Below the pieces are notes generated by a model that saw only the letters and a program-made list of their open reading frames with translations, was not told where the DNA came from and ran no database searches. This document shows positions 1,942 to 61,500 of a DNA stretch of 64,000 nucleotides, piece by piece (position 1 is the stretch's first letter; each line of letters begins with the position of its first letter). Source of the DNA: Gigantopelta aegis (taxonomy: Eukaryota; Mollusca; Gastropoda; Neomphalida; Peltospiridae). Location: contig NC_054712.1 of the NCBI RefSeq assembly GCF_016097555.1, positions 46,713,071 to 46,777,070 of the forward strand, written 5' to 3'. The position numbers and the translations under genes were made by a program.

Positions 1942-4900
1942 ATGGCGTCTGCTTCCCGTGATAGTATATCCTGTGGAATATGCATGGACAGATTCCATGA
2001 TCCGAGAAGCCTCCTGTGTGGCCATTCCTTCTGTCACCAATGTCTGGAAGACCACGTCTTCAGCACAGTCACCTTGTGCTGTTTCCGCTGTCCCATCTGC
2101 AGAAAACCCAACTACTCCGACAACACCAAGTCCCTGGCTGAACAGTTCAGCCTCAACTACTCCCTCATACAGATCAGTGAGCAGATCACGCAACAGCAGA
2201 TGGGTGAGTATCATACAGAATGATAGAAAAACACATCTATACAGTGCCTAAAGTAGTGTCGGAAATAGAATAAAAACGATTTTTGTCAATTATTTCTTTC
2301 ATATTAAACTGACAAGTAAATATTTTGTAAATACCTATTTAATGATACTCTACCTAATTTAGGATTTACTTGTTTGGGCTCTCATTAATGTACAAGGTGG
2401 TGTTTACTCTTGAACTTAAAATAAAGATGTCAGTACAGGAGATTTGTGACTTTTAATGGAACAGACTATAACACATTTTGATGAATATGTGTCAATTTCA
2501 TTTACCCATAAACAAACTTTCAATTTAATACTGATTATTTTGAATTGCAGCATAAATTATTAATTTTGACCAGCATATGTAGTGAATATAAATTCAATAT
2601 AAGTATAGTAGAAATTTACACAGTCTTGCAACCACTTAAAGGTGCTATATCAGAAGTTATATGTGAGCATCTGTTTGCGATAAAGATTCTCCAATAAAAA
2701 TGTATTTTCTACTAGTAGATAAAATCATTTTCTATAATCATTTAATTTATGGGCATATAGTTAAAGGTGTAGTCTTTAAATGTTAAAACAAAATTTAATA
2801 TAACATGATTTGCAATAGCTGTCATGCAACTTTGAGATAGCACCTTTAATACCGGAAAATAGATCACAATCTCAAAATGGTTCTTGCCAGTTTTGCTAAA
2901 AAAATTACTTATAAATGTCTACAAATATTTTGTTTTGGAGAGGAATAGGGGTAAACCATCATCAGAAACGGTCCCTCACATATTGTAACAGCAATGAAAT
3001 TAACATAATATTTATGTTGACCAAACTTTGTTATAGTCTATTCCAATAAAGTGCACAAATCACTTGTTTACTGACATATTTCTTTTAATTTCAAGAGTAA
3101 ACACAACCTTGTACATCAATGAGAGCCAAGACAAGTAAATGCTGAATTAGGTAGACTAGACAAAATATTTACTTGTCTGTTTAATATTTAAGAAATAATC
3201 GACGAAAATCATTTTTATTCTATTTCCGACAGTACTTTACTAATAGGAGGCAGGTAGTTCATCAAGATAAACGTCTCCGGCACGATATTTATTATTGTGA
3301 TGTTTATTGCTGTGCCGTAACGTTTATCCATTGGATCGAATTTTCCATTTGCAATCACGATTTAATAAAATCAGGCATATGTGCTCTATTTAAGAGCCTC
3401 AACACGTACAACAACATATTTTAATAAATTTTAGACAAAAATATTAAGTACAATACCTTTGGTAACCTTTCCAGGATTAGATGTTTGAAGATGACACATT
3501 TAAACATTTGAAAGCTATTTTTATCCTGGCACATCGAAAATGCGGAATGAAAATTTTGCGGAACGAGAATTATTCGTATCAAGCATTTTACGTACACCCA
3601 GTAAAAAGAAATATTGCGGAACTGAATGGAATTGATTATTAAATTTATTTATTTTGTTATTTTTGTTTCTACATATGTGCTTTGTGTGGGTTGCATTATA
3701 TGCATTGTTAATAATATTATCACATTAAAGTTTTGGGGTGTATTATTCTTTTTTATTATTATTAAAAAAATAATGATTGTTAGTACAGGTCATTACTTAT
3801 TTTAAGGCCTTCATTTATTTACTTTTTCCAAAATTATTATTTCTTTAGTAATTGTTTTTAAATATTATTATTACAGGCCATTGCTTACATGTGTTTCAAA
3901 GGTTTTTTTCTTTTTTTCTCTCTTCTTTTTTGTTTTAATTTCATTTCTTTTTTTTAGCTATAATTACTGGTCATTAGTTATTTTAGGAGTTTTATTCAGT
4001 TAAATTTAATTGTTATTATTAATTTATTATCAATTAATTGATTTTTAAACAATATTATTCATTAAATAAGTTTATTTATTTATTATTATAAAACGTGATA
4101 TTCCATTAAATATCGTGGAATAAACTCGTGAACCCGAGACGAATAATAATAAAAATAATCCGATTCCACCAACAGTTTTCAATCACATTTTAAATATGCT
4201 CACAATGGCCGGCGGGAATATTCGAGATTTTGTTCGTAACTGAAAATTGGATTAATGCAGGATTACTATTTGGACAAACTGTCTATTTATGCGTAAAACG
4301 TGACTCGGGAAGTTTTCTTTATACAGTAAGTGTTTATATTTATTGGTACATCTCATATTTCGCCACGAAATAATTAATTCCATGGTTGTATCGATTCCGC
4401 CTGAAATCTGGGCGGAAACTGCACGCTTGTTTTTGCTGTTCAAGTTGTAAACATCGGGTCCAATAAATGTCAAAATGTAAAAAAACGGACCGTAGATGTT
4501 TACCTTGGTGAACTAGGAGGCAGGGTGCAATATTACAACGAAAAAGAAGTTGTAAATTGCTCGGTTTTAACTTTGTCTATTTGGAAAGGATCCTATACCA
4601 GTATTACTGTGATCCTTCTGTTATTCTGTCCCCCTACGTATTTCAGGCTTGATAGTTCAAGTTTGTTTTAATAACACAACTAGAGTTTATTGCTTTATTG
4701 ATTGGAAGGAAGAAGGACATGTTTTATTTAACGACACACTTAACACATTTCATTTACGGTTATATGGCGTCGGACACATTGTTAAGGACCACACAGATAT
4801 TGAGGGAGGAAACCCGCTGTCGCCACTTCATGGGCTACTCTTTTCGATTAGCAGGAGGGATCTTTTATAGGCACCATCCCATAGACAGGATAGCACATAC

Positions 4901-7900
4901 CACAACCTTTAATGTACCAGTCGTGCACTGGCTGGAGCAAGAAATAGCCGAATGGGTCCACTGACAGGGATCGATCCCAAACCGATCGTGTGCTTTACCA
5001 CTGGGCTACGTCCTGCCCCCTTATTGATTGGATGCCAAACATTTGGTAATTATGACATATATTCTTGGAGAGGAAACCTGCTACATTAGTAGCAATGGAT
5101 CTTTTATATGCACCAATCCACAAATAGGATAACACATACCACAGCCTTTGATATACCAGTCATGATGCACCGACTGGAACTTAGATAGATAGATAGATAT
5201 CTAGTTTAACGTGCCCATATACCACTAGGGTTTCGAACACGCCCATCCCGAGGTGGCCTGACTCGGGATGGGCGGGGGTAGAGTTGAAAATGTGCAGAAT
5301 TTTGATTTTGAGCACATTGATTTATTAATCATCGTCTGTTGGATGTAAAATATTTGGTAATTCTGACATATAGTCTTAAAGAGGAAACCAGCTACATTTG
5401 CCCAGTAATAGCAAGGGATCTGTTATATGCACCATCCCATAGACAGCACAGCACATACTACAGCCTTTGATGTACCAGTAGTGGTGCACTGGCCAGAATG
5501 AGAAACAGCCACTTCACTATTGTCTGTTCTTCTTAGTTTGGAGTAGGGCGGAACGTAGCCCAGTGGTAAAGTTTCTCGTTCCAGCCAGTGCTCCACAACT
5601 GGTGTAACAAAGGCTGTGGTATGTACTGTGGGATGGTGCATATAAAAGATCCCTTGCTGTTAATGGAAAAGAGTAGCCCATGAAGTGGCGACAGCGGGTT
5701 TTCTCTCAATATATCTGTGTGGTCCTTATCCATATGTCCAACGCCATATAACCGTAGATATAAAAAAAAAAAAAAAAAAAAAAAATGTGCTACGTGTATT
5801 GTTAAATAAAACATTTCCTTCCTTCCTTCCTTCCAGTTTGGAGTATAATATGATTTGGTCTCGCTATTCTTTCATGTTTTTGATACTCTCAACAGCTCCT
5901 GTGGTGACCGGTTCAAGCAACTTCATTGTAGCAGGAGGTAACATCGTTGACAGCAAAGTCAACATCACCAGCATCACCAACGTTTACGGAATAGGTATGG
6001 TAATAAATTTGAAGTGAGGTCTATGTTTATCAAACAAAGGGAAACATATTTTTCAAATAAAAACCAGAAACTTCGGTTCATTCTTTTGTGTGCTTTACAA
6101 CTGACTTCTCTTAGTTTGTAGTACTGGCCTCGGTGGCGTCATGGTTAGGCCATCGGTCAACAGGCTGGTAGTTACTGGGTTCAGATCCCAGTCGAGGCAT
6201 GGGATTTTTAATCCAGATACCGACTCCAAACCCTGAGTGAATGCTCAGCAAGGCTCAATGGGTAGGTGTAAACCACTTGCACCAACCAGTGATCCATAAC
6301 TGGTTCAACAAAGGCCATGGTTTGTGCTATCCTGCCTGTGGGAACCGCAAATAAAAGATCCCTTGTTGCTAATCGGAAAGAGTAGCCCATGAAGTGGCAA
6401 CAGTAGGTTTCCTCCCTCAATATCTGTGTGGTCCTTAACCATATGTCCAACACCATATAACCGTAAATAAAATGTGTTGAGTGTGTCATGAAATAAAACA
6501 TTTCCTTACTTCAGATTATCTTTTACTTTATGTTTAAAAAAAATCCAAATAAGGTTCAAGCACTCACCTCGGCTATCTGTTCTGGATAGTTAAAAGTTAA
6601 AGTTTGTTTTGTTTAACGACATCACTAGAGCATATTGATTAATTAATCTTTTATATGCACCATCCCACAGACAAGATAGCACATACCACAACTTTGATAT
6701 ACCAATTCTGGTGCACTGGCTGAAACGAGAAATAGGATAGAGGTTAATGCTGGTAATTTTCCCATTTAAAGGTTAACTTCCCATTTGTAGGTTAAAGGGA
6801 CCTAAAGTGTTAGCTTCAACCCGTGAAAATTAACACTAAGTTTAGTTAATCTACAAACCTGTAACACTTTTGGATAAAGATACAATTGAGTGAAATATGA
6901 GTCTGTGACTTTGAAATGGTGAAATATCCTCAAAATATAGACTAAAACTTAACTCCATAACTGTTACTTCTCAGACGCACGTGCGTTTTAAAAAATATGA
7001 GAAATGCATTTTTTTATTAAAAAACCCACCAGGATTACTTTGAATGCACGGAAATTGGTAATCTAAACCATAAAATCTAAGTAAAGTATGATTTCAGTTA
7101 TCAAAAATGGCTATAATAGTTTAAAAAATATGAGTTAGTGTTTAAAAACTAGGGTATGTCCCTTTAACTTTATATGATAATTAATGTAAAGTTAAAACGA
7201 GTCAAAAACAAAAAGCTTCTTCAGGTTGTATGTCTTCATTTCCGATAAAGGCCATTTCAAAGTTGTAAAAAAATTATAGAAAATTGCCTTTTGACTAAAA
7301 GACAAATTTCCTTGAATGGTGGCCAGAGGTTCCAAAAATTTCAAAAAAATTACTTGTCACAGGGCAAGTGCTAATCAGATATTCACTTGCCCCAAATATT
7401 TTTCCACTTGCCCATACTTCTTAAGGTAACCAATTGTGTTACTCCTACTTAATTTAATACAGTGCACAATAATGTAATAATCTTGAAAGTAATTGGCTTA
7501 ATTGCACAAATAAAGATTTTTGGCAATAGGTTACATCACTTACATCAGTTGTTATCGAACTTTTCAACACATTGTTTTCCGTTTTGGTGTGTTAACGCAT
7601 TGGTAAGAGTTCCGGTTGTTCCAGCATTTAGGGTTAGGTTAGTTCTCAAGGCTATGTAAATGCTCGAACGATCGGAACTCTTTCCAAAGGATTTATGGAG
7701 ATTTGTAACAAATTGAAAATACGTTTTAGCTATTACATTAGTCACTTGTCATCGGGCATATGCAGTTAACATAATTACTTGCCCGACATGAAAATTCCGC
7801 TTGGCATGGGCGTCGGGCGATGGGATTTTTAATCCCCTGGTGACCGAAAAAGATCAAGAATGACATAAAGTTTGTTTTGTTTAAAGACACCACTAGAGCA

Positions 7901-10233
7901 CATTGATTTATTAAATCATTGGCTATTGGATGTCAAACAGTTAATTTCAAACGTTAGGTAATTTCGACATATAGTCAAACCCACTACATTTTTCCATTAG
8001 TAGCAAGGAATTTTGTATATGCACCATCCCACAGACAGGATAACACATACCACAGCCTTTGATACACCACTGGCTGGAAAGATAAATAGCCCAATGGGCC
8101 CATTTAGGGGGAATGGTCCTAGACCGACTATGCATCAGGTGAGTGCTTTACCACTGGGCTACATCCAACCATAAGAATCCTTCTTTTTGAATAAAATGTG
8201 TCATATTTAGCATAGGTATGTTGTAATATGCTCATAGGTATATTGTAATATGCTCTGTGGTATGTTGTAATATGCTCTGTGGTATGTTGTAATATGCTCT
8301 GTGGTATGTTGTAATATGCTCATAGGTATGTTGTAATATGCTCTGTGGTATGTTGTAATATGCTCATAGGTATGTTGTAATATGCTCTGTGGTATGTTGT
8401 AATATGCTCATAGGTATGTTGTAATATGCTCTGTGGTATGTTGTAATATGCTCTGTGGTATGTTGTAATATGCTCTGTGGTATGTTGTAATATGCTCTGT
8501 GGTATGTTGTAATATGCTCATAGGTATGTTGTAATATGCTCATAGGTGTGTTGTAATATGCTCATAGGTATGTTGTATTATGCTCTGTGGTACTTGTATA
8601 ACGTACAAGCAAAAACAGGAATTAGTTTTAATACTTTTTACTAGTTACGGTATGAGGAATACAAAGTATACAGTGAAATAGATTTGTTGCTCTGTGGTAC
8701 TTACATAAAAGTAAAAACAGGAATTATTTGTAATACTTTTTACTAGTTATTAAGAATACAAAGTATACAGTGAAATAGATTTATTGCTCTGTGGTACTTA
8801 CATAAAAGCAAAAACAGGAATTATTTGTAATACTTTTTACTAGTTATTAAGAATACAAAGTATACAGTGAAATAAATTTATGCTCTGTGGTACTTACATA
8901 AAAGCAAACACAGGAATTATGTTTATGCTCTGTGGTACTTACATAAAAGCAAACACAGGAATTATTTTAATACTTTTTACTAATTATGAGGAATACGAGG
9001 TATACAGTGAAATAGATTTAAACCATATATCTCATAGAACTTAATCATTTTATTATAAAGTTAACCTTAAACAATGGACAGGTAGAATAATTCAAACAGT
9101 TAATCATTGGCTAGAATCTTATATTATTCAGTCGATTAATTAAAGATTTTTTTATTATTTACACAGACGCACCCAAAGCAAAGCTGAAAAAGTCCCTGGA
9201 TCAACTGGAAACATCGTTCCAGTCCATGGAGGTGAAACTTCAGTACCAGCGTCAACAAGAGTTAGTGAATCTCGACCTCAACGTGTCGCAGATTAAACAT
9301 GACATCGATGCCAGTGCTGAGAAACTGATAGAACTCTACAAAACTTCAGACAGTGATCATAAGAATGTTGAGAAGTTTATAGAGGAAATCTGTGGTGGTC
9401 GGGAATCTCAACATATCCAGTTATCTAAACTACACGAGACTACCAGAACCAAAATAGATGAACAGTTTAATGAGGAAAGAATGGTGTTAGTTGAACCAAG
9501 ACAATTGTTACAGGATAATTTGTTGGGTAAAGATTCGTTAACAGACTTAGAAATTGAAAAGAACACGGAAAGAATTGATAATGCTAACAAAATATTAACA
9601 GATTATTTGGCTCAAAATCAGACAAAACCCACACAAACAAGAATCACATTTACAAAATCTGCATGCGAAGGAGACACAATTTGTCCAAATATTGGTATAC
9701 TTTCTTGGACAGACGGACAGACAGAGATGAAAGGAGATACCGTTTGTCCAGATATTGGTATACTTTGTCTGACAGACGGACAAACAGAGATGAAAGGAGA
9801 TACCGTTTGTCCAGATATTGGTATACTTTGGCTGACAGACGGACAGACAGATATGGAGATGAAACGAGACACGGAACACCTGACCCCTAAACCTTGGTCT
9901 GTCACAGTGTTGGGTATTAACCTGTTCGTCGTATCGGGTGTGAACACTGTGACGTGCATGACATCATCTGGTGACATCAACTGGGTGACATCTCCCGATA
10001 CCAAACTGAGGTTTGCGTGGGGTATAGCGTGTGACAGATCGGGCTTTGTGTATGTGGTGGATCGCCACAGCAATACCGTTATTCAGCTGTCCCCTAGTGG
10101 CGAGTATTTGTGCGATGTGCGAACTGGGCGCGACAAGATATCAGTCCCAAGGGCTCTGTGTTTTAACAGGGACTTACTGTATATCACTCAGGATAATGGA
10201 GAAATAAAAATATTTATTGAAAAACAGAATTAG
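1942..10233 (+). CDS. RING / coiled-coil / truncated propeller protein, TRIM-like (copy A)
   Basis: Three coding exons: 1942-2203, 5896-5994, 9167-10233, with GT-AG junctions and matching phases; 475 aa. Exon 1 is a C3HC4 RING finger (Cys11, 14, 26, His28, Cys31, 34, 50, 53), expected to bind an E2 and act as a ubiquitin ligase. No B-box is seen. Exon 2 is a 33-residue beta-rich linker. Exon 3 gives a coiled coil (about residues 122-270), three copies of a 21-residue repeat (about 290-352) and only about 119 residues of NHL-like propeller. Compared with copy B (23525-29563), about 477 bp is missing in frame near 9875 and one extra 63-bp repeat unit is present. The start ATG is shared with copy B; an in-frame upstream ATG at 1918 is absent from B. 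No stop or broken splice site was found, but half a propeller is unlikely to fold normally, so this may be an expressed variant or an early pseudogene. Family assignment is firm at the RING, moderate for the propeller. Confidence 0.82.
2251..3237. mobile_element. 987-bp TA-target foldback element (copy A only)
   Basis: About 230-bp inverted arms beginning AAGTA(G/C)TGTCGG, flanked by TA (2249-2250, 3238-3239). Copy B continues without it at 23829. No transposase gene; probably mobilised by a Tc1/mariner-type enzyme. Confidence 0.85.
3255..4515. mobile_element. 1261-bp TIR element, 9-bp target duplication (copy A only)
   Basis: Begins TAGTTCATCAAGATAAACG and ends with the complement of TAGTTCACCAAGGTAAACAT. 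The 9-bp GGAGGCAGG is duplicated at 3246-3254 and 4516-4524 and present once in copy B. Interior is AT-rich with no transposase seen. A 9-10 bp duplication would suit Mutator-like elements. Confidence 0.85.
4640..5190 (-). mobile_element. SINE type 2 split by another SINE (copy A)
   Basis: A type 2 SINE interrupted by the type 1 SINE at 4706-5020. The same nested arrangement exists in copy B (about 23990-24617). Confidence 0.75.
4706..5020 (-). mobile_element. SINE type 1 nested in a type 2 SINE (copy A)
   Basis: Flanked by a perfect 11-bp TTATTGATTGG (4695-4705 and 5021-5031) that is part of the host SINE. The shared nesting in both copies shows it predates the duplication. Confidence 0.88.
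5320..5515 (-). mobile_element. Partial SINE type 2
   Basis: Contains the GGATCTGTTATATGCACCAT and CACTGGCCAGAATGAG parts of the family; lacks a clear head. Confidence 0.65.
5544..5837 (+). mobile_element. SINE type 1 in intron 1 of copy A
   Basis: Head GGGCGGAACGTAGCCCAGTG, B-box region deleted, tail ending in repeated CCTT. An 11-bp duplication AGTTTGGAGTA flanks it (5533-5543 and from about 5838). It ends about 60 bp before exon 2. Confidence 0.82.
5896..5994 (+). other. Small beta-rich exon 2 of the copy A RING gene
   Basis: A 99-bp exon in phase 1 at both ends, encoding 33 residues rich in Val, Ile, Gly, Asn, Ser and Thr with no long helix signal (for example AGGNIVDSKVNIT then TNVYGIG). 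It lies between the RING and the coiled coil. Copy B keeps it with two substitutions and one codon fewer. The alternating hydrophobic/Asn-Gly pattern recalls short amyloid-type assembly motifs (RHIM-like), but this is resemblance only. Confidence 0.7.
6124..6512 (+). mobile_element. SINE type 3 in intron 2 of copy A
   Basis: Alternative tRNA-like head (GGCCTCGGTGGCGTCATGG, GGGTTCAGATCCCAG) joined to the type 1 body and tail. The same head is at 17923 and 59061. Confidence 0.82.
6796..7163. mobile_element. TTAA-target MITE in intron 2 of copy A
   Basis: Begins AGGGACCTAAAGTG and ends ACTAGGGTATGTCCCT, flanked by TTAA (6792-6795, 7164-7167). Copy B has the empty site GGTTAACTTTATATG near 27233. 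Confidence 0.85.
7319..7842. mobile_element. Likely TIR element in intron 2 of copy A
   Basis: About 520 bp absent from copy B (near 27400). The ends are loosely inverted (GGTGGCCAGAGGTTCC and the complement of GGTCACCAGGGGATT), and ACTTGCCC-type words recur within. No clear target duplication. Confidence 0.5.
7863..8165 (-). mobile_element. SINE type 2 in intron 2 of copy A
   Basis: Runs from AGTTTGTTTTGTTTAAAGAC to TACCACTGGGCTACATCC; counterpart in copy B at about 27437-27700. Confidence 0.8.
8211..8590. repeat. 22-bp minisatellite, about 17 units
   Basis: Unit GGTATGTTGTAATATGCT plus four variable bases (CTGT or CATA). Copy B has one unit near 27734, so the array grew in copy A. Confidence 0.93.
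8581..9030. repeat. About 100-bp tandem repeat before exon 3 of copy A
   Basis: Four to five units starting TGCTCTGTGGTACTTACATA. Copy B has about two (27755-27940). Confidence 0.85.
9663..9861 (+). repeat. 63-bp coding repeat, three units
   Basis: In exon 3 of copy A; each unit encodes 21 residues around CPDIGIL then LTDGQTEMK. Copy B has two units (28586-28712). Unit length is a multiple of three, so expansion keeps the frame. Confidence 0.88.
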
Positions 10234-13867: not shown

Positions 13868-16800
13868 GGTGGCAGCAGGTATCGAAACCACGCGTCTGAA
13901 CACAAGCAGACTTTCCCGTAAGCTGTCCTGTATAGTTTTATTACGTCACGTAGCTGATCGGTTCGGCGTTTAGCTCGCCTGTAACACACATTCTTTCATC
14001 GTAATTCTACAACACAAACACACCATGGCACAGACACACCGCGCTCCAAAACAATGGTCTCTAACAAAAGTAGAAACAGTAAATTCATTCGAAAACTGGC
14101 GTCAAAATGTACACGTCACTCGATCTCAACTTAGCCGTTTCTTGGCCGATGGATATGTACATGGGATAAGAAGTCCCGTACAGAACCCACAAGAGGTTTC
14201 GCTGACGATGGTGAACATATCCCAGTAAGACAACGTCTTACAGCTCAACAGAAAAGCAACTACTTAGACTTGATGTTGGGACAAATTGCAAATTATTTCC
14301 CCATCATATCTCGCAACACCATAATTAAAACATCCACATCTCTACCTTGCATCTGGCAGTCAATATGCCTACATTTTGGCTTCAAATCCACCGGGGGTCA
14401 TTTTCTGGATTTTGATGAAATTCAACTACAGCCAGAGGAAAGACCAGAAGATCTCTTTCGGCGCCTAACTGCATTTGTAGAAGACGATCTACTCACACAT
14501 GTTAGCAGCATCACTCACCATGGTGACCAGGTTGCTGAAGATGAGGAAATGTCTCCATCTCTTGAAAACTTTATTGTTCTTCAGTGGCTGAGACTTATCA
14601 ATAAAGACCTACCTAGACTTGTCAAACAAAAGTATGGCACAGAACTTGGATCAAGAACTTTAGCATCAATCAAGCCAGAAATATCACAAGCTTTGCCGTC
14701 ATTAATCGATGAATTACGCACGTCTGAAGATGCAAAGGTCATGTGCTCCTCAGCATGGCGGTCGCAACAAATACCCAGACACCAACAGGCTAAGCATGTT
14801 ACCTCTGGGACGCCATCCAAAGTATACCCCATATGCAAAGCAGCAGATCGTTCCTATGATCATTTCCTGAGCCGTTGCAAACACCTTCCTGAAAGTGATC
14901 GCAAATTCCTTCTAAAAGCTCGACAAATAATCAACATAGCTGACAACGAGGACTCTGCAGACACTGATGACGACGAACAAAACGAATCGCCATCTGAATC
15001 TCACCAGTCTTCTAGTGCTTCTACACTGAGAGTGCAGATCAAAATATCACTCTACATAAATGTGTTTTACAAACACAACAATGTTCGAGTAACTCTTGAC
15101 ACCGGCGCCACTGGAAACATGGGTAGGTTATCAACTGCACAAGCATTGGGATTCCACATCAAAAAAACCTCACAGTCAGCACACCAAGCAGATGCCTCAT
15201 CTCCCTTGAATGTGATTGGAGAAATTACTGCCATCTCGGGGAGATAAAAAATTCCATTTTGAAGGCTTGATCGTGGAACAACTAGATGTAGACATACTTG
15301 CTGGTACACCATTTATGGAAAGTAACGACATCGGCATTCGACCTGCAAGGCGTCAGATAAGTCTTAAAGATGGTACACTTGTTCACTACGGCTCTATATC
15401 TGAAACAAAGGATCAACACACCATTGGCCGAGCTCGTGTACTCGGAGCACTACCCACTACTACCACAGTGTGGCCCGGTGACTATGTTGAAATACCAGTG
15501 CCTGATGACTACGCACTTCAAGATGATTTGTATGCTGTAGAACCACGAACCGATAACATTCATGCTACTCAATCCAAAACATGGCCTCCACACAGTCTCC
15601 TCCAAAGTGTATCGGGGAGAATTCGCATACCAAACACAACCGACAGTCCACAACTCCTGAGGAAAAATTAACATTTTTGCCAAATTCGACCAGTATTCAT
15701 CCCAGAAGTTGACAATGTCATTGACAAACCACATCACCCCAGAACATATACCAAATCACAGTCATATGGCAAGTTCTCAGACCAAATTCAAATAGACCCT
15801 CACCGTATTTTCTCTCTTCGGAAATCAGACATTCAGTGCTCTGGTTCAGGAATATGGTGATGTATTTGACCCTTCCATAGAATGCTATAATGGTGCCAGT
15901 GGTCCATTCCAAGCAGTAGTTAACATGGGTCCAGTACAACCTCCTCAGAGGAAGGGAAGAGTACCCCAGTACTCCAGAAAGCAACTCGGAGAACTTCAAC
16001 AGATGCTCGATGACCTCGAGGACAAGGGAGTTTTCAAACGTCCTGAAGATGCAGGTATCAAGGTTGAATATGTTAACCCTTCCTTCCTTGTCAGAAAGCC
16101 ATCAGGTGGCCATCGCCTAGTCACATCATTCGGTGATGTTGATCTTTACACCAAACCTCAGCCGTCCCTGTTACCTGATGTAGATTCAACATTAAGACAA
16201 ATCGGTCAATGGATATATATTATTACCACTGATCTGTCCAGTGTTTTCTACCAAATACCACTTGACAAGAATTCCATGAAGTATTGTGGTGTTGCTACTC
16301 CGTTTCGCGGTATCCGTGTATACACCCGATCGGCAATGGGTATGCCAGGTTCAGAAACTGCACTAGAGGAACTTATGTGTAGAGTTCTGGGAGATTTATT
16401 GACGGAAGGGGTTGTCAGTAAACTAACTGATGACATGTATTGTGGCGGAAATACCCCTGAAGAATTAATCAACACTTGGCATCGGTTGTTGACAGCCCTT
16501 TGACACAACAACTTACGACTGTCAGCATACAAAACAATAATCATTCCACAATCAACCACAATCCTAGGATGGAATTGGCTGTATTCAGGCTAGTCCTCAC
16601 TGCATCGCTACTTTAGCGTCATGTTCGCCTCCCAACTAAGTCTATGGGTTGCGCTCGTTCATTTGTGCATACAAAATTCTCGCCCGCGTTATACCCAGCT
16701 GTTCAAAGATCCTTGCCCCTTTTGATGATATTGTAGCAGGTCACCAGTCAAAAGATGAAATAGTTTGGAGCAATGACCTTCATGATGCCTTTTCTCATGC

Positions 16801-17922
16801 CCAGACAATGCTCTCCTCAAACAAAGCAATTGTTCTCCCAAACCCAAAAGACCAACTTTGGATTGTTACAGATGGAGCTGTTAAGGATCCAGGCATAGGA
16901 GCAACATTGTATGTAACTCGTTACAATCAACCTCGCGTTACAGGATTCTTCAGCGCAAAACTAAGACCACGTCAAGTCACATGGTTACCGTGTGAAATTG
17001 AAGCACTGTCGATTGCCGCTGCCACAAAGCACTTCAGTCCTTACATCATCCAGTCCAGTCTGAAACCTATCATCCTAACTGATAACAAACCTTGCATCCT
17101 TGCTTTTGAGAAGTTATGTCGTGGCGAATTTTCAGCAAGTCCTTGGGTTTCAACTTTTCTATCTACAGTCAGCAGATTTCAAGCCTCCGTCCGTCATCTG
17201 GCTGGTAATGCAAATATCCCATCAGATTTTGCTAGCCGAAATGCTCCAGAGTGTCACAATGAATTGTGTCAAATATGTGCTTTCATCCAAGAAACTGAAA
17301 ATTCTGTTGTTCGACACATTCTCATAGATGACATACTATCAGGTAAAACTCGGATACCCTTCACCACGATATCAACTTGGCACTCTCACTACAAGAAGAG
17401 TGCAAGGATTTGCGGCGTACCGATTCTCACCTGATTCGAGGTACTCACCCTTCGAAGAAGCTCACCAACATCAAAGATGTTAAACGTTACATCAATACGG
17501 CAACCATTGCAAAAGATGGTCTCCTCGTCGTAAAGCGAAGTGATTCGCTATTCCCCACACGAGAATGTATTGTTGTTCCCTGACAAGTTCTAGAAGGTCC
17601 CTTCAATGCCTTACATATTCAGTTGAATCACCCATCAGCATTTCAACTGAAGAAGGTAGTTCAAAGATACTTCTTTGCGCTTGACATGGATCGTTCCATT
17701 GACTATGTATCCAACAACTGCCATCAGTGTGCTGCTCTGCACAAGACTCCATCTACCATTGTCGAACAAGTTCAAGTAATCCACCTGAGACTGTAGGCAG
17801 TCTCTTTGCTGCAGATATCCTTAAACGAGAACGCCAACTCATCATAGTTGTGAGGGAATGTGTTACATCCTTTACAGTCGCCTGTCTGATTGATAATGAA
17901 CGTAGTGATGTCATTCGACAGG

Positions 17923-18357
17923 TACCGGCCTCGGTGGCGTCTTGGCAGGCCATCGGTCTACAGGCTGGTAGGTACTGGGTTCGGATCCCAGTCGAGGCAT
18001 GGGATTTTTAATCCAGATACCGACTCCAAACCCTGAGTGAGTGCTCCGCAAGGCTCAATGGGTAGGTGTAAACCACTTGCACCGACCAGTGATCCATAAC
18101 TGGTTCAACAAAGGCCATGGTTTGTGCTATCCTGCCTGTGGGAAGCGCAAATAAAAGATCCCTGCCTGTGGGAAGCGCAAATAAAAGATCCCTTGCTGCC
18201 TGTCGAAAAAAGAGTAGCCTATGTGGCGACAGCGGGTTTCCTCTTCAAAACAGTGTCAAAATGACCATATGTTTGACGTCCAATAGCCGATGATAAGAAA
18301 AAAAATCAATGTGCTCTAGCGGCGTCGTTAAATAAAACAAACTTTACTTTACTTTTT
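17923..18357 (+). mobile_element. tRNA-derived SINE inside the LTR element
   Basis: Flanked by a perfect 12-bp duplication TCATTCGACAGG (17911-17922 and 18358-18369). The head has a GGTTCGGATCCC B-box-like motif; the tail ends GTTAAATAAAACAAAC. A short internal tandem duplication is present near 18135-18190. Confidence 0.88.
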
Positions 18358-23524: not shown

Positions 23525-26500
23525 ATGGCGTCTGCTCCCCGTGACAGTATAGCCTGTGGAATATGCATGGACAGATTCCGTGATCCGAGAAGCCTTCTGT
23601 GTGGCCATTCCTTCTGTCACCAATGTCTGGAGGACCACGTCTTCAGCACAGTCACCTGGTGCTGTTTCCGCTGCCCCATCTGCAGAAAAGCCAATTACTT
23701 CGACAACACCAAGTCCCTGGCTGAACAGTTTGGCCTCAACTACTCCCTCATACAGATCAGTGAGCGGATCACGCAACAGCAGATGGGTGAGTCTCACAAA
23801 GAATGATAGAAAAACATATCTATACAGTGCCGAGTAATGGGCGGCAGGGTGCAATATTACAGCAATGAAATTTTTAAAAAAACATTTAGTTGTAAAGTGC
23901 TCGGTTTTAACTTTGTCTTTTTGGAAAGGATCCTATACCAATATTACTGTGATCCTTCTGTTTTTGCTGCCCCCCATGTTATTTCAGGCTTGATAGTTCA
24001 AGTTTGTTTCAATAACACAACTAGAGCATATTGCTTTATTGATTGGAAGGAAGAAGGAAATGATTTATTTAACGATGCACTCAACACATTTCATTTACCG
24101 TTATATGGCGTCGGACACATGGTTAAAAACCACAGAGGTATTGAGGGAGAAAACTCGTTGTCGCCACTTCATGGGCTACTCTTTTTCGATTAGCAGCAAG
24201 GGATCTTTTATATGCACCATCCCATAGACAGGATAGCACATATCACAGCCTTTGATGTACCAGTTGTGGTGCACTGGCTGGAGCAAGAAACAGCCCAACA
24301 GACCGACCGCTCATCAAGCGAGCGCTTTACCACTGGGCTATGTCTCGCCCCTCTTATTGATTGGATGCCAAACATTTGGTAATTATGACATATTTTCTTG
24401 GAGAGGAAACCTGCTATACATGTATTAGTAGCAATGGATCTTTTATATGCACCAATCCACAAACAGGATAACACATACCATGGCCTTTGATATTCCAGTC
24501 ATGATGCACCGACTGGAACTGGGAAATAGTCCAGTGGGCCCACCAATGGGGATTGATCTGAGACTGACCATGCATCAGGCAAGTGCTTGACCACTGGGCT
24601 ACATCCTGCCTGTACCTAGTAGGAGGCAGGGGGGCAAAATTACAAAAACTATTCATTTTAGTTTAAAAGTGCCTTTTTGTCATTCAGGAAAAGATCCCAT
24701 CCCAGTACTATTTCTTTTTTTAGTGTTTTCTTATTCTTCTTGTTTTGCTGCCCAACCTTGTACCCATAGTAATTTCAGGCTAGATAATTGATGTTAAAGG
24801 GACATTCCTGAGTTTGCTGCAATTTTAAAGATGTTATCGACTAACAGAGACTTTTTAATGATTGTAATTACATATCAAATGTATTTTTCGGCATAAAATA
24901 TTAGTTGCTGTATATTAAACATGTTTCTGATGGTTCTAATATTTGTAGTAGGTTAAATTTTACAAATATTAAGATGACCAGAAACACATTGAGTATACAG
25001 ACACTACTATTCTAAACAAGAAAATATATTTAATATGTAAGTTTAATCGTAGAAATATTTAATTAGTCGGAAACATCTTACAATGCAGCAAACTCAGGAA
25101 TGTCCCTTTAAAACATCTTACAATGCAGCAAACTCAGGAATGTCCCTTTAAAGTTTATTTTGTTTAATGACACTACCACGCTCTATATATGTGCACATTG
25201 TATTGTGGTCCTTAACCATATGTCTGACGCCACATAACTGTAAATTTAAAAAATGTGTTGAGTGCGTTGTTAAATAAAACATTTCTTCCTTCCTTCCAGT
25301 TGAAGTAAAATATTATTTGGTCTCGCTATCCTTTCATGTTTTTGATACTCTCAACAACTCGGGGGCGGGACATAGCTCAGTGGTACAGCACTTGGTTGAT
25401 GCACGATCGTTCTAGGATCGATTCCTTCTGTGGAACCATTGGGCTATTTCTCATTCCAGCCAGTGCTCCACAACTGGTGTAACAAAGGCTGTGGTATCTA
25501 CTATTCTGTCTGTGGGATGGTGCATATAAAAGATCCCTTGCTATTAATCTAAAAGAGTAGCCCATGAAGTGGCGACAGCAGGTTTCCTCTCTCAATATCT
25601 GTGTGGTCCTCAACCATAAGTTTGACGCCATATAACCGTAATAAAATATGTTGAGTGTGTCATTAAATAAAACACTTCTTTCATTTTCTTTCTCAACAGC
25701 TCCTGTGGTGACCGGTTCAAGCAACGTCGTTGTAGCAGGAGGTAACATCGTTGACAGCAAAGTCAATATCACCATCACCAACGTTTACGGAATAGGTATG
25801 GTAATAAATTTGAAGTGAGGTCTATGTTTATAGAACAAATTGAAACACATTTTTCAAATAAAACCCAGAAACTTTGGTTCATTCTTTTGTGTCCTTTACA
25901 GCTGACTTCTCTTAGTTTGTAACACATGTACTGTCAAAGAAAGAAAGACATGTTTTATTTAACGACACACTCAATACATTTTATTTATGGTTATATGGTG
26001 TCAGACATATGGTTAAGGACCATACAGATATTGAGAGAGGAAACCCGCTGTCCCCACTTCATGGGCTACTTTTTTTTATTAGCAGCAAAGGATCTTTTAT
26101 ATGCACCATCCCAGACAGGATAGTACATACCACGGCCTTTGTTACACCAGTTGTGGAGCACTGGCTGGATGTACTGTCATGGTAATCAGCATTTCAGATT
26201 ATCTAAAAATATCTTTGATGTGCGGTCGGTTTGGGATTGATTCCCGTCAGTGGGACCATTGCACAAATTTCTCGCTTCAACCAGTGCACCACGACTGGTA
26301 CATCAAAGGCCATGGTATGTACTACCCTGTCTATGGGATGGTGCATATAAAAGATGTCTTGCTGCTAATCGAAAAGAGCAGCCCATGAAGTGGCGACAGT
26401 GGGTTTCCTCCCTCAATATCTGTGTGGTCCTTAACCATATGTCCGACGCCATATAACCGTAAATAAAATTTGTTGAATGTGTCATTAAATAAAACATTTC

Positions 26501-29500
26501 CTTCCTTCAGATTATCTTTTACTTTATGTTTTTAAAAAATCCAAATAAGGTTAAAGCACTCGCCTCGGCCATCTGTTCTGGATAGTTAAAAGTTAAAGTT
26601 TGTTTTGTTTAACGACATCACTAGAGCACATTGATTTATTAATCATCACTATTGATTGTCAAACATTTGGTAATTCTGACATATAGTATTAGAGAGGAAA
26701 CACTATATTTTTTCATTAGTAGCAAGGCTAAGGGGATCTTTTATATGCACCATACCACAGACAAGATAGCACATACCATGACCGTTGATATACCAGTCGT
26801 GGTGTACTGGCTGGAACAGGAAATACTGTCCTGGATAGAGGTTAATGCCTGACATTTACCAGGGCCTCTAAATTATGGTAGCCCCACTCACATGGCTAGT
26901 GATATTCAATGTTGGGCTAGTAAATAACTACTATTGCCATGCCAGACGGCTAGTGAAAAAAAGAAGTTAAGTGTTTTTTGTAAATATGAATATCCTGACC
27001 CCACCCCAACCCCCAAAGTTAGTATTTTTAAGCTCTATCTCCCTCTTTAGGTGACATAGTATCTGATTATTACTATTATTTAGTAAAATTGTATTAACTT
27101 ATAGTGAATTTTTAATCATGGCTAGTAAATGTATTAAATCACTGATCCCATGGCTAGTTGATTTTTTTTAAATTCTACAAGCCCTGCATTTTCCCATTTA
27201 AAGGTTAACTTCTTATTAACTTCCCATTTATAGGTTAACTTTATATGATAACGTAAAGTTAAAACCAGTCCCAAAAAAAAGCTTCTCCAAGTTGTATGTC
27301 TTCATTTCCAATAAAGGCCATTTCAAAGTTATAATTTTTTTTATAGAAAATTGCTTTTTGGCTAAAAAAACCCAAAACAAACCATGAGTTATCTTCCTTG
27401 AAGAGAGACCAAAAAAGATCAAGAATGACATAAAATAAAGTTTGTTTTGTTTAAAGACTCCACTAGAGCACATTGATTTATTAAATCATTGGCTGTTGAA
27501 TGTCAAACATTAGTTAATTTCAAATGTTAGGTAATTTTGACATATAGTCAAACCCACTACATTTTTCCATTAGTAGCAAGGAATTTTGTATATATACACC
27601 ATCCCACAGACAGGATAACACATACCACAGCCTTTGATACACCACTGGCTGGAACAAGAAATAGCCCAACTATGCATCAGGTGGGCTACATCCAACTATA
27701 AGAATCCTTGTTTTTGAATAAATTTTGTCATGTCATAGGTACAGGTATGTTGTAATATGCTGTGGTACTTGGGTAAAAGCAAAAACAGGAATTATTTTTA
27801 CTAGTTATGAGGAATACAAAGTATATAGTGAAATAGATTTATGCTCTGTGGTACTTACATAAAAGCAAAAACTGGAATTATTTTTAGTACTTTTTACTAG
27901 TTATGAGGAATAGAAAGTATACAGTAAAATAGATTTAAACCATATAACTCGTAGAACTTAATCATTTTATTATAAAGTTAACCTTAAACAATGGACAGGT
28001 AGAATAATTCAAACAGTTAATCATTGGTTAGAATCTTATATTATTCAGTCGATTAATTAAAGATTTTTTATTATTTACACAGACACACCCAAAGCAAAGC
28101 TGAAAAAGTCCCTGGATCAACTGGAAACATCGTTCCAGTCCATGGAGGTGAAACTTCAGTACCAGCGTCAACAAGAGTTAGTGAATCTCGACCTCAACGT
28201 GTCGCAGATTAAACATGACATCGATGCCAGTGCTGAGAAACTGATAGAACTCTACAAAGCCTCAGACAGTGATCATAAGAATGTTGAGAAGTTTACAGAG
28301 GAAATCTGTGGTGGTCGGGAATCTCAACATATCCAGTTATCTAAACTACACGAGACTGCCAGAACTAAAATAGACGAACAGTTTAATGAGGAAAGAATGG
28401 TGTTAGTTGAACCAAGACAATTGTTACAGGATAATTTGTTGGTTAAAAATTCGTTAACAGACTTAGAAATTGAAAAGAACACAGAAAGAATTGATAATGC
28501 TAACAAAATATTAACAGATTATTTGGCTCAAAATCAGACAAAACCCACACAAACAAGAATCACATTTACAAAATCTGCATGCGAAGGAGATGCAATTTGT
28601 CCAAATATTGGTATACTTTCTTGGACAGACGGACGGACCGAGATGAAAGGAGAGACCATTTGTCCAGATATTGGTATACTTTGTCTGACAGACGGACAGA
28701 CAGATATGGAGATGAAACAAGACACGGAAGACAGACAGGAAACTGGACATAAAAACCAGGAAAGTGTCTATTTAAAACTTCTGAAGGTCATCAACACCAG
28801 ATATGATCCTAATACAACCGAACTTACTCCCCTTCTGACTTCAATCGATGTAATAGTCGTATACGAATCATTAAAAGTACTAGTAGCTGATTGCAGGAAC
28901 TTGTGTATTAAATGCTACAATTATGACGACGGCATGCTGTATTGTTCTTATAAGACAAGTGATGCGCCACGTGGTCTAGCGAAACTACAGGACTGTCGAG
29001 TGGTCGTAACATTACCACATGAGCGACAGATTGTTTTTTTCACTGTTACTGATGTCATCACAGTAACCAATACTCTGAATATGGAGAAGGGATATTTCAA
29101 CATAACCCAGTTACACGACTCCCATCTGGCAGCCACTGTATGGTTGTCGAAACCTGGCTGTGTCGATATCCTTGACCTCAAGGGTCACGTGATGCGTTCC
29201 ATATCGAACCTGACCGCTAAACCTTGGTATGTCACAGTGTTGGGTATTAACCTGTTCGTCGTGTCGGGTGTGAACACTGTGACGTGCATGACATCATCTG
29301 GTGACATCAACTGGGTGACATCTCCCAACACCAAACCGAGGTTTGCGTGGGGTATAGCGTGTGACAGATCGGGCTTTGTGTATGTGGTGGATCGCGACAG
29401 CAATACCGTTATTCAGCTGTCCCCTAGTGGCGAGTATTTGTGCGATGTTCTCACTGGACATGACAAGATATCGGTCCCGAGGGCTCTGTGTTTTAACAGG

Positions 29501-29563
29501 GACTTGCTGTACATGACTCAGGATAACGGAGAAATAAAAATATTTATAGCAAAACAGAATTAG
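23525..29563 (+). CDS. RING / coiled-coil / NHL-like propeller protein, TRIM-like (copy B)
   Basis: Three exons: 23525-23786, 25700-25795, 28083-29563, phases matching, 612 aa. RING residues are as in copy A (Cys11, 14, 26, His28, Cys31, 34, 50, 53), with eight substitutions in the 87-residue exon 1. Then come a 32-residue beta-rich linker, a coiled coil (about 121-270), two 21-residue repeats (about 288-331) and a complete-looking C-terminal propeller (about 345-612) with NHL-like blades such as RSGFVYVVDRDSNTV. Length suits a six-bladed NHL domain (about 270 aa). The order RING, coiled coil, NHL matches invertebrate TRIM2/3/32/56-like E3 ligases lacking B-boxes, which often act in signalling or innate immunity; substrate unknown. 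A SINE (25361-25690) is inserted at the intron 1 acceptor: the working acceptor is the duplicated target copy at 25698-25699, and its pyrimidine tract comes from the SINE tail. Likely a functional duplicate of copy A. Confidence 0.87.
24047..24353 (-). mobile_element. SINE type 1 nested in type 2 (copy B)
   Basis: Orthologous by duplication to 4706-5020, with the same TTATTGATTGG flanks inside a type 2 SINE (to about 24617). Confidence 0.85.
24798..25107. mobile_element. TTAA-target MITE in intron 1 of copy B
   Basis: Same subfamily as 1266-1642 (CCTGAGTTTGCTGCA ends), flanked by TTAA at 24794-24797 and 25108-25111. The last 40 bp or so is repeated in tandem immediately after (to about 25151). 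Confidence 0.85.
25361..25690 (+). mobile_element. SINE type 1 at the intron 1 splice acceptor of copy B
   Basis: Flanked by a 12-bp duplication TCTCAACA(A/G)CTC (25349-25360 and 25691-25702), which is the acceptor of exon 2. The upstream copy reads CAA instead of CAG. Copy A has one uninterrupted TCTCAACAGCTC. The SINE tail CTTCTTTCATTTTCTT supplies the pyrimidine tract. Confidence 0.9.
25700..25795 (+). other. Small beta-rich exon 2 of the copy B RING gene
   Basis: A 96-bp exon, same phase and position as the copy A exon. It differs by Phe-Ile to Val-Val and loss of one Ser codon, so hydrophobicity and frame are kept. Its acceptor lies in a SINE target-site duplication. Confidence 0.72.
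25936..26170 (-). mobile_element. SINE type 1, partial, intron 2 of copy B
   Basis: Begins AAAGAAAGACATGTTTTATT and stops in the CACTGGCTGG part; head missing. Confidence 0.75.
26222..26508 (+). mobile_element. SINE type 1, intron 2 of copy B
   Basis: Head partly lost (starts GTGCGGTCGGTTTGGG), body and tail AATAAAACATTTCCTTCC present. It faces the preceding minus-strand SINE. Confidence 0.75.
27437..27700 (-). mobile_element. SINE type 2, intron 2 of copy B
   Basis: Counterpart of 7863-8165 with a deletion near its head. Confidence 0.7.
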
Positions 29564-52672: not shown

Positions 52673-54162
52673 CTCTTCAAAAAAAGTAACGCAAAGCCAG
52701 ATTTTCATTGTATGTTTCTAAATCGTTTAATACATGAAAGAAACAAGGCAAAAAATTGCAATTTGACACAGATAAACAACATTGACAGAGGCTGTTGTAA
52801 CAGCCATCCAAGTTCCCACGGTCCTGTTTGATGTCACGTACAGTCAGTAACGAGTGTGACCCCCATGAGAGTCAAGTACTTCCTGGCACCTCCTGCCCAT
52901 CGAAGCAATCAGATGACGGATGAAATCCTGCGGAATTGTAGCCCACTCGGCCTCCAAAGCGGCAGCCAGCTGTTGTAGTGTCTGAGGTTGGGGTTGTCGT
53001 CGTCGCAAACGTCTATCCAGTTCATCCCACAAATGCTCGATTGGGTTTAAATCTGGGGATTTGGAGGGCCATGGAAGAACATTGATGTTGTTGTTTGCTA
53101 GGAAGGCTGTGGTGATGCGCGCTGTATGAGAACGGGCATTGTCCTGCTGGAAAACAGTGTTGCCGTTGGCCATGTTGGGGACGACGTACGGGCGCAAGAT
53201 CTCGTCCACATAGCGCTGTGCTGTCAAGTTCCCCCTGATGTGCACCAAGTCTGTCCTGGCGTTGTAAGAGATGGCTGCCCACATCATCACACTTCCTCCA
53301 CCAAATTTGTCCACTTCCTGTATGCAATTGCGTGCAAAACGTTCACCTCTTCAGCGGTAGACACGTGCCCTTCCATCCTGTCTGCGGAGCATGAATCGCG
53401 ATTCGTCGCTGAACCACACGTGTCTCCATCGTCTTTGAGGCCATACCCTGTGTGCTTGACACCATTGTAGTCGAAGCTGTTGATGCTGCTGGGTTAAAAT
53501 CACGCCTCTAACAGGACGTCTGGGTCGCAATCCTGCCTCTTGTAGACGGTTCCGGACAGTCTGGTCAGAGATCCTACGCAGTCCCGGTATTGCAGATTGA
53601 GTGGAGGTAGCCGTGGTCGTCCTTTGGCGTAGGTGGCGTAACCGGATGTAGCGATCCAGGGCAGGAGTGGTGACATGTGGTCTACCGGATCTGCAAAGGT
53701 CACGTGTTGATCCATGCGCCTGGTAGCGGATCCATAATCTTGAAATGGTGCTAGGGCACACATTGAAAAGCCTCGCAACCTCTGATTGGGATTCGCCTGC
53801 TTCCAATTGTCCGACGGCTGTTCCTCTGTGCTTCATTCAGTCTTGGCATTGTGAAAGCTACGCTGACAGTTTTAAACCGAGTACAGCTAAGTCCTGAACC
53901 CTGCACTTTTATAGGGCTTCTTGTGCCTCTTGCACATGCACACCATGCCGTTCAAATCGCTGAATTGACAGCAGGTGCGGTTTTGCGATTGTTAAACTTT
54001 TTCACATCTGTCGTCAAGGTCATAAAATTCCGAACAACTTTGCTGGTGAAAATGCATTTGGTACGTTCCATTACACAACATACTTAGCGTTCGGAACACA
54101 ATGTTTCCACACATCCATATTTATTAGGAAAATTTAATTTTTGCGTTACTTTTTTTGAAGAG
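52673..54162. mobile_element. Tc1-type DNA transposon, nearly whole
   Basis: About 1.49 kb with matching inverted ends (CTCTTCAAAAAAAGTAACGC and its complement), flanked by TA duplications at 52671-52672 and 54163-54164. It carries one transposase gene on the minus strand. It sits upstream of CLPTM1L in intergenic DNA. Confidence 0.93.
52844..53849 (-). pseudogene. Tc1 transposase (DD34E), two lesions
   Basis: Starts at ATG 53847-53849 (MPRLNEAQR). The paired helix-turn-helix region is followed by a DDE domain: FSDESRF (first Asp), FQQDNARSH (second Asp), then Glu in PDLNPIEHLWDEL, with 34 residues between the second Asp and Glu. The frame shifts at about residue 9-10 (near 53825), and there is one in-frame TGA near 53354, at a likely former CGA arginine codon. 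Catalytic residues are otherwise intact, so the copy is fairly young but should not make a full protein. Confidence 0.9.
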
Positions 54163-58541: not shown

Positions 58542-61500
58542 TGTTGTCCTGGTTTTTATTTTATTGTCTTGTGGCGACTCTGTTAGCGAACCAAGTCCGT
58601 TTTGATGGGTAGGTTGATTTTAATTACATTTTAGGCAGGTAATAATTGTTGACGAGAAACAAACAAACGCAGTGGTTTTAGAAAAGGTGCTTCGCTTTGA
58701 TCAGCCTAACTTATAAAACAACGCAGGCGCGAGTTATCTGGGGGGTTCGGGGGTATGATTCAAAGGTTATTTGCCCGTTACTGTAATTCCCGCCGTTAAT
58801 CTCGACCCGTTAGTCTCGCTACAACTTTTACATTCAGTCAAGATGTAAAGGTTATTAAAAAATTACTGGGGGGCCGGGCCCCCTTCCCCCCCCCTTCCCC
58901 CCACCTACCCCACCCCCTGCTACGGGCCTGCCTCTGCAAAAATCCAAGGAAAAAAATGCATAGCCTACTAGTAAGCCTAGTAGCATGTTAGAGCAAACAC
59001 GACCACCCACGATAAGCAACTTAAATAATTACCTTTTCTTTGGAACTTCGTAACCAGTCAGGCCTCGGTGGCGTCGTGGCAGGCCATCGGTCTACAGGCT
59101 GGTAGGTACTGGGTTCGGATGCCAGTCGAGGCATGGAATTTTTAATCCAGATACCAACTCCAAACCCTGAGTGAGTGCTCCGCAAGGATCAATGGGTATG
59201 TGTAAACCACTTGCACCGACCAGCGATCCATAACTGGTTCAACAAAGGCCATTGTTTGTGCTATCTCCTGCCTGTGGGAAGCGCAAATAAAAGATCCCTT
59301 GCTGCCTATCGTAAAAGAGTAGCCTATGTGGCGACAGCGGGTTTCCTCTAAAAAAATATGTGTGGTATTTAACCATATGTCTGACGCTATATAACCGTAA
59401 ATAAAATGAGTTGAGTGCGTCGTTAAATAAAACATTTCCTTCTTTCGTAACCGGTCAGTTCTGGAGCGGGACGTAGCCCAGTGATAAAGCGTTCGCTTGA
59501 TGCGCGGTCGGTCTGGGATCACTTCCTGTCGGTGGGCTCCAGCCAGTGCACCACGACTGGTATATCAAAGGCCGTGGTATGTGGTATCCTGTTCGTGGGA
59601 TGGTGCATATAAAAGATCCCTTGCTGCTAATCGAAAAGAGTAGCCCATGAAGTGGCGACAGCGGGTTTCCTCTAGCAATATCTGTGTGGTCCTTAATCAT
59701 ATGTCTGACGCCATATTACCGTAAATAAAATGTGTTGAGTGCCTCGTTAAATGAAACATTTCCTTCCTTCAGATTAGCTTTTACTTTATGTTTTTTTTAA
59801 AAATCCAAATAAGGTTAAAGCACTCACCTCGGCCATCTGTTCTGGATAGTTAAAAGTTAAAGTTTGTTTTGTTTAACGACATCACTAGAGCACATTGATT
59901 TATTAATCATCAACTATTGATTGTCAAACATTTGGTAATTCTGACATATAGTATTAGAGAGATTATTTGTTAAAGAACGTTTTGATATTCTTCAGCAGTA
60001 ATGCGACACGGGTCATGATCCACTACATGCTAATTGTAATAGCACAAGTGCCTACATATTATCCATACCATTAAACAAAAACTAATATTAGGACATATCA
60101 CTGGTGTAGCCAGGCTTTTAGATTGGGGGCCAACCCACTATTATGGGGGTGGGGTGGGGGGGGGGGGGCAACCCACACTATGTATGTATACATGTATATG
60201 ATTTTATAAAATTTAATATAGTAAAAAAAAAAGGTTTTGATCCAGCAGTAGGAGGGCAGTCCCCACCCACCCACCCACCCACCCCACACACACCGCCCCT
60301 GTCTCGTACGCTTATGCGATGATTAAGAAATTACTGTGCTCTAGGTGTAGTTAAACAAACTTTATACTACCAAGGTTAGAAACCGAAGCATCCGTAATTA
60401 GCCTAGATTCTAGCATTAGTTTAAAGTGCCCTAGTTTTCACTATCAGAACCATTTTTGATAACTGAAATCAAACTTTACTTACATTTTGTTGCTTAGATT
60501 ATACATTTCCCTACATCCGAAGTGTTTTTATATCACAAAATGCATTTTTTTCATATTTTTAAAAACGCACGTGCGTCTGAGAAGTAACGGTTATAGAGGC
60601 GAGTTTTAGTTTGTTTACAAGGTTCCAACGTCATAGACTCTTGTTTCAACCTGTTGTAACTTTATCCAAATGTGTTGCAGGTTTGTAGATTAACTAAACT
60701 TAGTGCCATTTTTTTTAAGGGTTGAAACTAGGGTGTGCACCTTTAAATGAGTATGAAACTTTCTCTTTTTTTCCAGACACAAAGTTCTGCGTGTTGTGCC
60801 ACACACATCTGATCAGCTACAATACCTGGTCTCTCTGCAACAAGACATTGATGTACGATAAATTCAGAATACACATACGCACGAACGCACACATACACAA
60901 ACAATCACGCACGCACACAAACACACACGGACACACACATACGCGCATACATACAGACGGACACACACGAACGCACGCGCGCACACACACACACACATAC
61001 GGATACACACAGGGACACACACACACAGACAGACGAACACACACAAAGGGACACACACACACACACACACAGACAGACGGACACACAGGGACACACACAA
61101 CACAGACAGACGGACACGGACAGACAGTCCCATGATTCCCCTCCCCTAGATCCGCCTTGAGCTGGTTTAGAGCTGTTAATTGCGCTATATCAAAGTTGTT
61201 TAATGGCGGTTCGCCGCCAAAATTATGTATCAACTTTTGCTTAGAAATGTGAATAGTATACATGTACCTTCAACTACATGCCTATAGAATTACGACTACC
61301 GGTGAATAATTTAAATGACTAATTTATTGGATTATTATTGGTGAATGACCAACTGAAGAGCTCAGTCGAACATTCCATAACGTTATTCCAGGTTATGTTA
61401 CTGGCCAGTGCGCTGTTTTAACAAACACACCCGTCTTTGACGGCCCTAAACTAGCTGCAGACAGTTAACTTGTCGGATTTCGTGGATTCGTCAATCTCAA

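Follow-up and report, generated by a model that had tools for sequence, protein, structure and literature searches.

The window analysed here is a 64,000-nt stretch of the Gigantopelta aegis genome (C14:46713071-46777070; genome 1.149 Gb). It carries a tandem, same-strand pair of predicted three-exon RING / coiled-coil / NHL genes, copies A and B, with a spacing of about 21.6 kb. The predicted messages of both copies are open throughout and free of stops, and their exons are placed as follows.

1942..2203, + strand, copy A predicted exon 1
5896..5994, + strand, copy A predicted exon 2, 99 nt
9167..10233, + strand, copy A predicted exon 3, 138 codons fewer than exon 3 of copy B
23525..23786, + strand, copy B predicted exon 1, RING finger
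25700..25795, + strand, copy B predicted exon 2, 96 nt, phase 1/1
28083..29563, + strand, copy B predicted exon 3, coiled-coil-like stretch (by eye) followed by an NHL match

The prediction of exon 2 draws on GT-AG borders, a phase of 1 on either side and a frame that is open in both copies; its GC content is 0.48, against 0.33-0.37 for the introns. The two exons 2 differ at 3 of 96 sites and by a single 3-bp indel, a low divergence that has a probability of 0.06 under the noncoding rate and is not significant by itself. That rate, taken from seven aligned noncoding stretches with both branches pooled, is 124/1621 (7.6%). Values of dN/dS between the copies were 0.32 for exon 1, 0.37 and 0.23 for exon 3 before and after its deletion, and 0.65 for exon 2, the last being based on three changes. 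Exon 3 of copy A lacks the NHL-propeller stretch found in copy B and in a paralog on C1, yet is still open, and it has an additional copy of the TDGQTEMKGDTVCPDIGIL repeat. Being 138 codons shorter and without the propeller stretch, it leaves copy B, which bears the insertion described below, as the more complete of the two genes.

The insertion at exon 2 of copy B

A short interspersed element (SINE) in sense orientation is inserted over the predicted exon 2 acceptor of copy B, with duplication of its target. The features involved are listed here, together with those of an older SINE that lies further upstream in the same intron.

5887..5898, + strand, empty target site in copy A, TCTCAACAGCTC (exact match)
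25349..25360, + strand, upstream target duplicate TCTCAACAACTC (exact match and alignment with copy A), in which the former acceptor AG reads AA (25356-25357)
25361..25690, + strand, SINE of 330 bp, sense orientation, with a candidate tRNA-like head and a pyrimidine-rich CTTC-type tail (genome-wide copies, 40-copy alignment)
25671..25690, + strand, SINE tail, presumed polypyrimidine tract (14/16 pyrimidines at -20 to -5, that is 25680-25695, of which 25680-25690 belong to the SINE)
25691..25702, + strand, downstream target duplicate TCTCAACAGCTC (exact match), covering positions -9 to +3 relative to exon 2, with the AG of the acceptor at 25698-25699
25204..25299, + strand, 3' part of the older SINE in copy B, common to copy A, tail ending in CCAG, AG at 25298-25299
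5535..5845, + strand, older SINE in copy A, with the duplicate AGTTTGGAGTA at 5535-5545 and 5835-5845 (by eye)

Exact matching located TCTCAACAACTC once in the window, at 25349, and TCTCAACAGCTC at 5887 and 25691 only, and neither had a minus-strand match within the window. The total insertion of 342 bp is made up of the 330-bp SINE and one 12-bp duplicate. Once it is removed, 18 of the 282 aligned positions around the junction distinguish copy A from copy B, and no difference falls between -27 and exon base 26. On an assumed base composition, and allowing 20 tail offsets, the two ends of the SINE would carry a 12-bp repeat this good (one mismatch at most) by chance with a probability of about 8e-5. 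The preliminary description of this DNA had identified the 12-bp duplication with the exon 2 acceptor of copy B, with CAA in the upstream duplicate, CAG beside exon 2 in the downstream one and a pyrimidine tract taken from the SINE tail. The exact matches and the alignment with copy A bear this out for the predicted acceptor: the duplicate spans -9 to +3, the two trinucleotides are as described, and the bases immediately 5' of -9 are those of the SINE. The uninterrupted site in copy A is likewise present but had been placed one base too far to the right, at about 5888-5899 in place of 5887-5898.

The SINE family and other elements in the window

The SINE is a dispersed repeat. Scoring of 40 of the 5967 first-look candidates in the genome gave the copy in B and at least 39 other near-full-length matches (87-90% identity), with at least 5 partial ones, and the family alignment was built from the 40 copies, B included, that comprise all near-full-length matches listed. 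Target duplicates of variable length, about 8-17 bp, flank 32 of the 40 when up to one mismatch per 8 bases is allowed, some of the shortest being possibly due to chance. Against a consensus built from the 39 other family members the SINE in B differs at 27/321 sites overall (8.4%) and at 15/284 outside CpG (5.3%); a 17-copy consensus gave a near value of 28/322. Ten of the 15 non-CpG differences are common to at least 5 of the other 39 copies and five occur in at most 2, so that the private divergence of this SINE is lower. Its apparent age (5.3%, compared with 7.6% between copies A and B) fits an insertion around or soon after the gene duplication.

The head gave an Rfam tRNA match of 18.5 bits at 25370-25431 (cut-off 29, E 0.34), beside which stood an equally weak mir-784 match, and a further 20 of the 39 family members, when checked, yielded no Rfam match at E 0.01. 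The SINE also contains TAGCTCAGTGG, which we take, by eye, to be A-box-like. Repeats with a different tRNA-like head are found at 6126-6507, 17927-18250 and 59061-59441, the second overlapping an ARAGORN tRNA of undetermined type at 17928-17999. Their body is common to the SINE in B, with 84% identity between 6282-6507 and 25456-25681, which suggests that SINEs with exchanged heads are present in the window.

The older SINE ends in TTCCTTCCAG, in copy A 59 nt 5' of the exon 2 acceptor, where its AGTTTGGAGTA duplicate starts with the best-scoring AG of the intron; it too puts an AG directly after its tail, within the same gene pair. Between the gene copies, at 14138-17431, are fragments of retroelements that match RNase H and, weakly, reverse transcriptase. 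On the minus strand, 52847-53836 holds a Tc1/mariner-like transposase as two adjoining open pieces with HTH_Tnp_Tc3_2 and DDE_3 matches.

Proposed splicing of exon 2 in copy B

We propose, with a probability of roughly two in three, that the SINE duplicated the acceptor, that the downstream duplicate came into use together with the pyrimidines of the tail so that exon 2 was left unchanged, and that the spare AG was lost later. The gene duplication into A and B would have come first and the reverse transcription of a SINE RNA into the acceptor of exon 2 in B second, since the site in A is empty and the target in B is duplicated. A staggered cut would have duplicated 12 bases, -9 to +3, which would place an AG|CTC junction on each side of the SINE. 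Because the SINE has the same direction as the gene and a run of pyrimidines at its end, the downstream AG receives its tract from the SINE; the branch point probably comes from the tail as well. The spliceosome would then take the downstream AG, giving an open message of 612 aa with RING and NHL matches. The upstream AG, which differs from its counterpart by a single G-to-A change, would have been removed afterwards; translation of a message made via that duplicate, were it still CAG, ends at a stop codon of the SINE (25480). The order given in the preliminary description, in which the redundant site is the one then lost, is correct provided that both duplicates started as CAG. Chance loss of the upstream AG (two bases, estimated age) has a probability of 0.04-0.10 by drift alone, so that drift or selection may have removed it.

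Acceptor strength was compared using approximate weights, so that the contrast alone counts. On this scale the exon 2 acceptor scores 1.6 in copy A and 6.7 in copy B, with 11/16 and 14/16 pyrimidines at -20 to -5, respectively, and the insertion has thus probably strengthened the acceptor of B. No AG occurs in the 42 nt that precede the acceptor in B or in the 50 nt that precede it in A. Within 60 nt, copy B has one yTnAy branch-point candidate, TTCAT, whose adenine (25683) and the G of the acceptor AG are 16 nt apart, a short distance for a branch point; the candidates in copy A are at 21 and 12 nt. The highest-scoring AG of intron 1 is in both copies the end of the older SINE (25299 in B, 9.9, 101 AGs scanned; 5836 in A, 11.7, 178 scanned), and the exon 2 acceptor of A ranks eighth by score among the AGs of its intron. 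We infer that the exon 2 acceptor of B survived in splicing.

Could the acceptor instead have been broken, with copy B skipping exon 2 and the G-to-A change being neutral decay? With 96 or 99 nt and phase 1 on both sides, exon 2 would be a cassette whose skipping preserves the frame at a cost of 32 residues, and the B message without it does remain open. In the three paralogs whose intervals were read (L029, L030 and L064; C1 holds two of them and C3 the third), exon 1 joins exon 3 directly and in the same phase, as assigned by eye, so that skipping would yield a known layout of the family, and it is the outcome given for NF1 acceptor insertions (PMC3219598). We nevertheless consider it unlikely: the rebuilt acceptor of B outscores the intact one of A, and exon 2 of B has stayed open, with an indel of codon size and only three changes. 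Very improbable, in our judgement, is entry into exon 2 of B through other AGs, chiefly 25299, where the tail of the older SINE ends, that would yield SINE-containing messages with stops. The leading scores of 25299 and of its counterpart 5836 speak for such use, but reading on from 25300 in the frame of exon 1 meets a stop at 25413 within the younger SINE, and in copy A the frame from 5837 is closed by a stop at 5851, ahead of exon 2, so that use of these AGs would be harmful in both copies.

We give hardly any weight to a SINE older than the gene duplication that was later removed from copy A, either by conversion or by precise recombination of the two duplicates. The divergence of the SINE from its consensus (8.4% over all sites, 5.3% non-CpG) is somewhat more than half of that between A and B, which speaks for an early insertion, but its private divergence is lower, with most of its non-CpG differences shared by other copies. 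Exact loss of a SINE is rare. For both the polarity and the splicing of the site we looked to paralogs, and their use as an outgroup was rejected: exon 1 DNA and DNA of the exon 2 site each match copies A and B alone in the genome, which leaves no third copy, haplotig or retrocopy to settle either matter.

The exon 3 family itself is large, with 89 matching pieces in the genome, A and B included, and its best matches outside the window (45% and 41% identity) are on C1. A tblastn search with the exon 2 peptide over 14 and 8 paralog loci (overlapping sets, with many loci too short for exon 1) found no convincing match; the best, in L026 at E 0.023, is antisense and falls in the region of exon 3. 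When the L029, L030, L063 and L064 intervals were scanned for open exons of phase 1/1, there were 6, 8, 24 and 21 candidate frames, respectively, and the exon 2 motif was absent from all of them. L065 has no clear RING exon, and in L063 the RING match is divided between two frames. At L030:8760-9080, in a paralog on C1, the intron end and exon 3 start (pyrimidine run, AG and a AAAACACCACAG-like sequence) appear by eye to be tandemly repeated several times, and such units would give competing acceptors.

Related insertions and a possible wider role of SINE tails

The closest precedent that we found is the merle SINE of canine PMEL17, a tRNA-derived element at an intron/exon border whose 15-bp target duplication includes the original acceptor. 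There a short tail leaves the original acceptor in use, and long tails lead to use of a cryptic site and to the coat pattern (PMC7349775). The two cases are alike in that the acceptor, predicted in B, lies inside the target duplication and that the pyrimidine tract is derived from the SINE; they differ in that the merle SINE is antisense with a poly(T) tract, whereas that of B is in sense orientation with a CTTC-type tail, is 5.3% from its consensus and has lost one redundant AG. Among 14 Alu insertions in NF1, one fell in an acceptor AG and three in a pyrimidine tract, with skipping of the downstream exons (PMC3219598). These de novo insertions resemble that in B as retroposons in the acceptor AG or tract with target duplications reported, but they result in exon skipping and disease, and the tail of a sense Alu is poly(A), in contrast to the pyrimidine-rich sense tail of the SINE in B. 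Introners, mobile elements that recruit a splice site from their own target duplication, share with B the origin of the site in a target duplicate. They make new introns, however, and most are believed to transpose as DNA (PMC9860276), whereas in B a SINE has extended the end of an existing intron. Since copy A has a predicted counterpart of this intron that lacks the SINE, the insertion is distinct from an introner, which would form a new intron in coding sequence. The insertion in B is a single instance of a phenomenon already known in dogs and people; an acceptor insertion by a sense-oriented, pyrimidine-tailed element was not found described in the open-access literature searched.

Across the family, an AG following the tail was located in 34 of the 40 copies within the span searched. 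The first such AG scores at least 1.6, the level of the acceptor of A, in 15/40 copies, B included, as against 9% of 4697 random first AGs (obtained from 5000 positions), and at least 6.7 in 3/40 as against 1%, the weights again being approximate. Target preference was assessed post hoc in the 27 of 40 copies with a confident duplicate, under a stricter rule than that used for the 32. Position 1 of the duplicate is a pyrimidine in 27/27 (simulated mean 0.61) and position 2 in 25/27 (simulated mean 0.52), neither value being reached in any of 200 simulations; positions 3 and 4 are unremarkable, with values as high in 35/200 and 42/200. The older SINE in copy A is an exception to the pyrimidine start, as its duplicate begins with AG. 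We hypothesise that a pyrimidine-rich sense tail and targets starting with two pyrimidines would favour both landing at acceptors and rebuilding them. That the family acts as a builder of acceptors, its CTTC tail aiding priming on pyrimidine-rich targets so that acceptor-like sites are hit and then supplied with a tract, is a speculative extension that we regard as rather doubtful.

Insertion into a splice acceptor is usually taken as a null mutation. At this locus the empty site, 20 kb away in the sister copy, makes the steps readable: duplicate, rebuild, lose the spare. The comparison suggests that the composition of the tail in the sense direction, pyrimidine or poly(A), may decide whether an acceptor insertion is tolerated, an idea that is testable in genomes full of such SINEs. 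Were the family indeed a builder of acceptors, many introns of this genome would have rebuilt or new acceptors at SINE ends.
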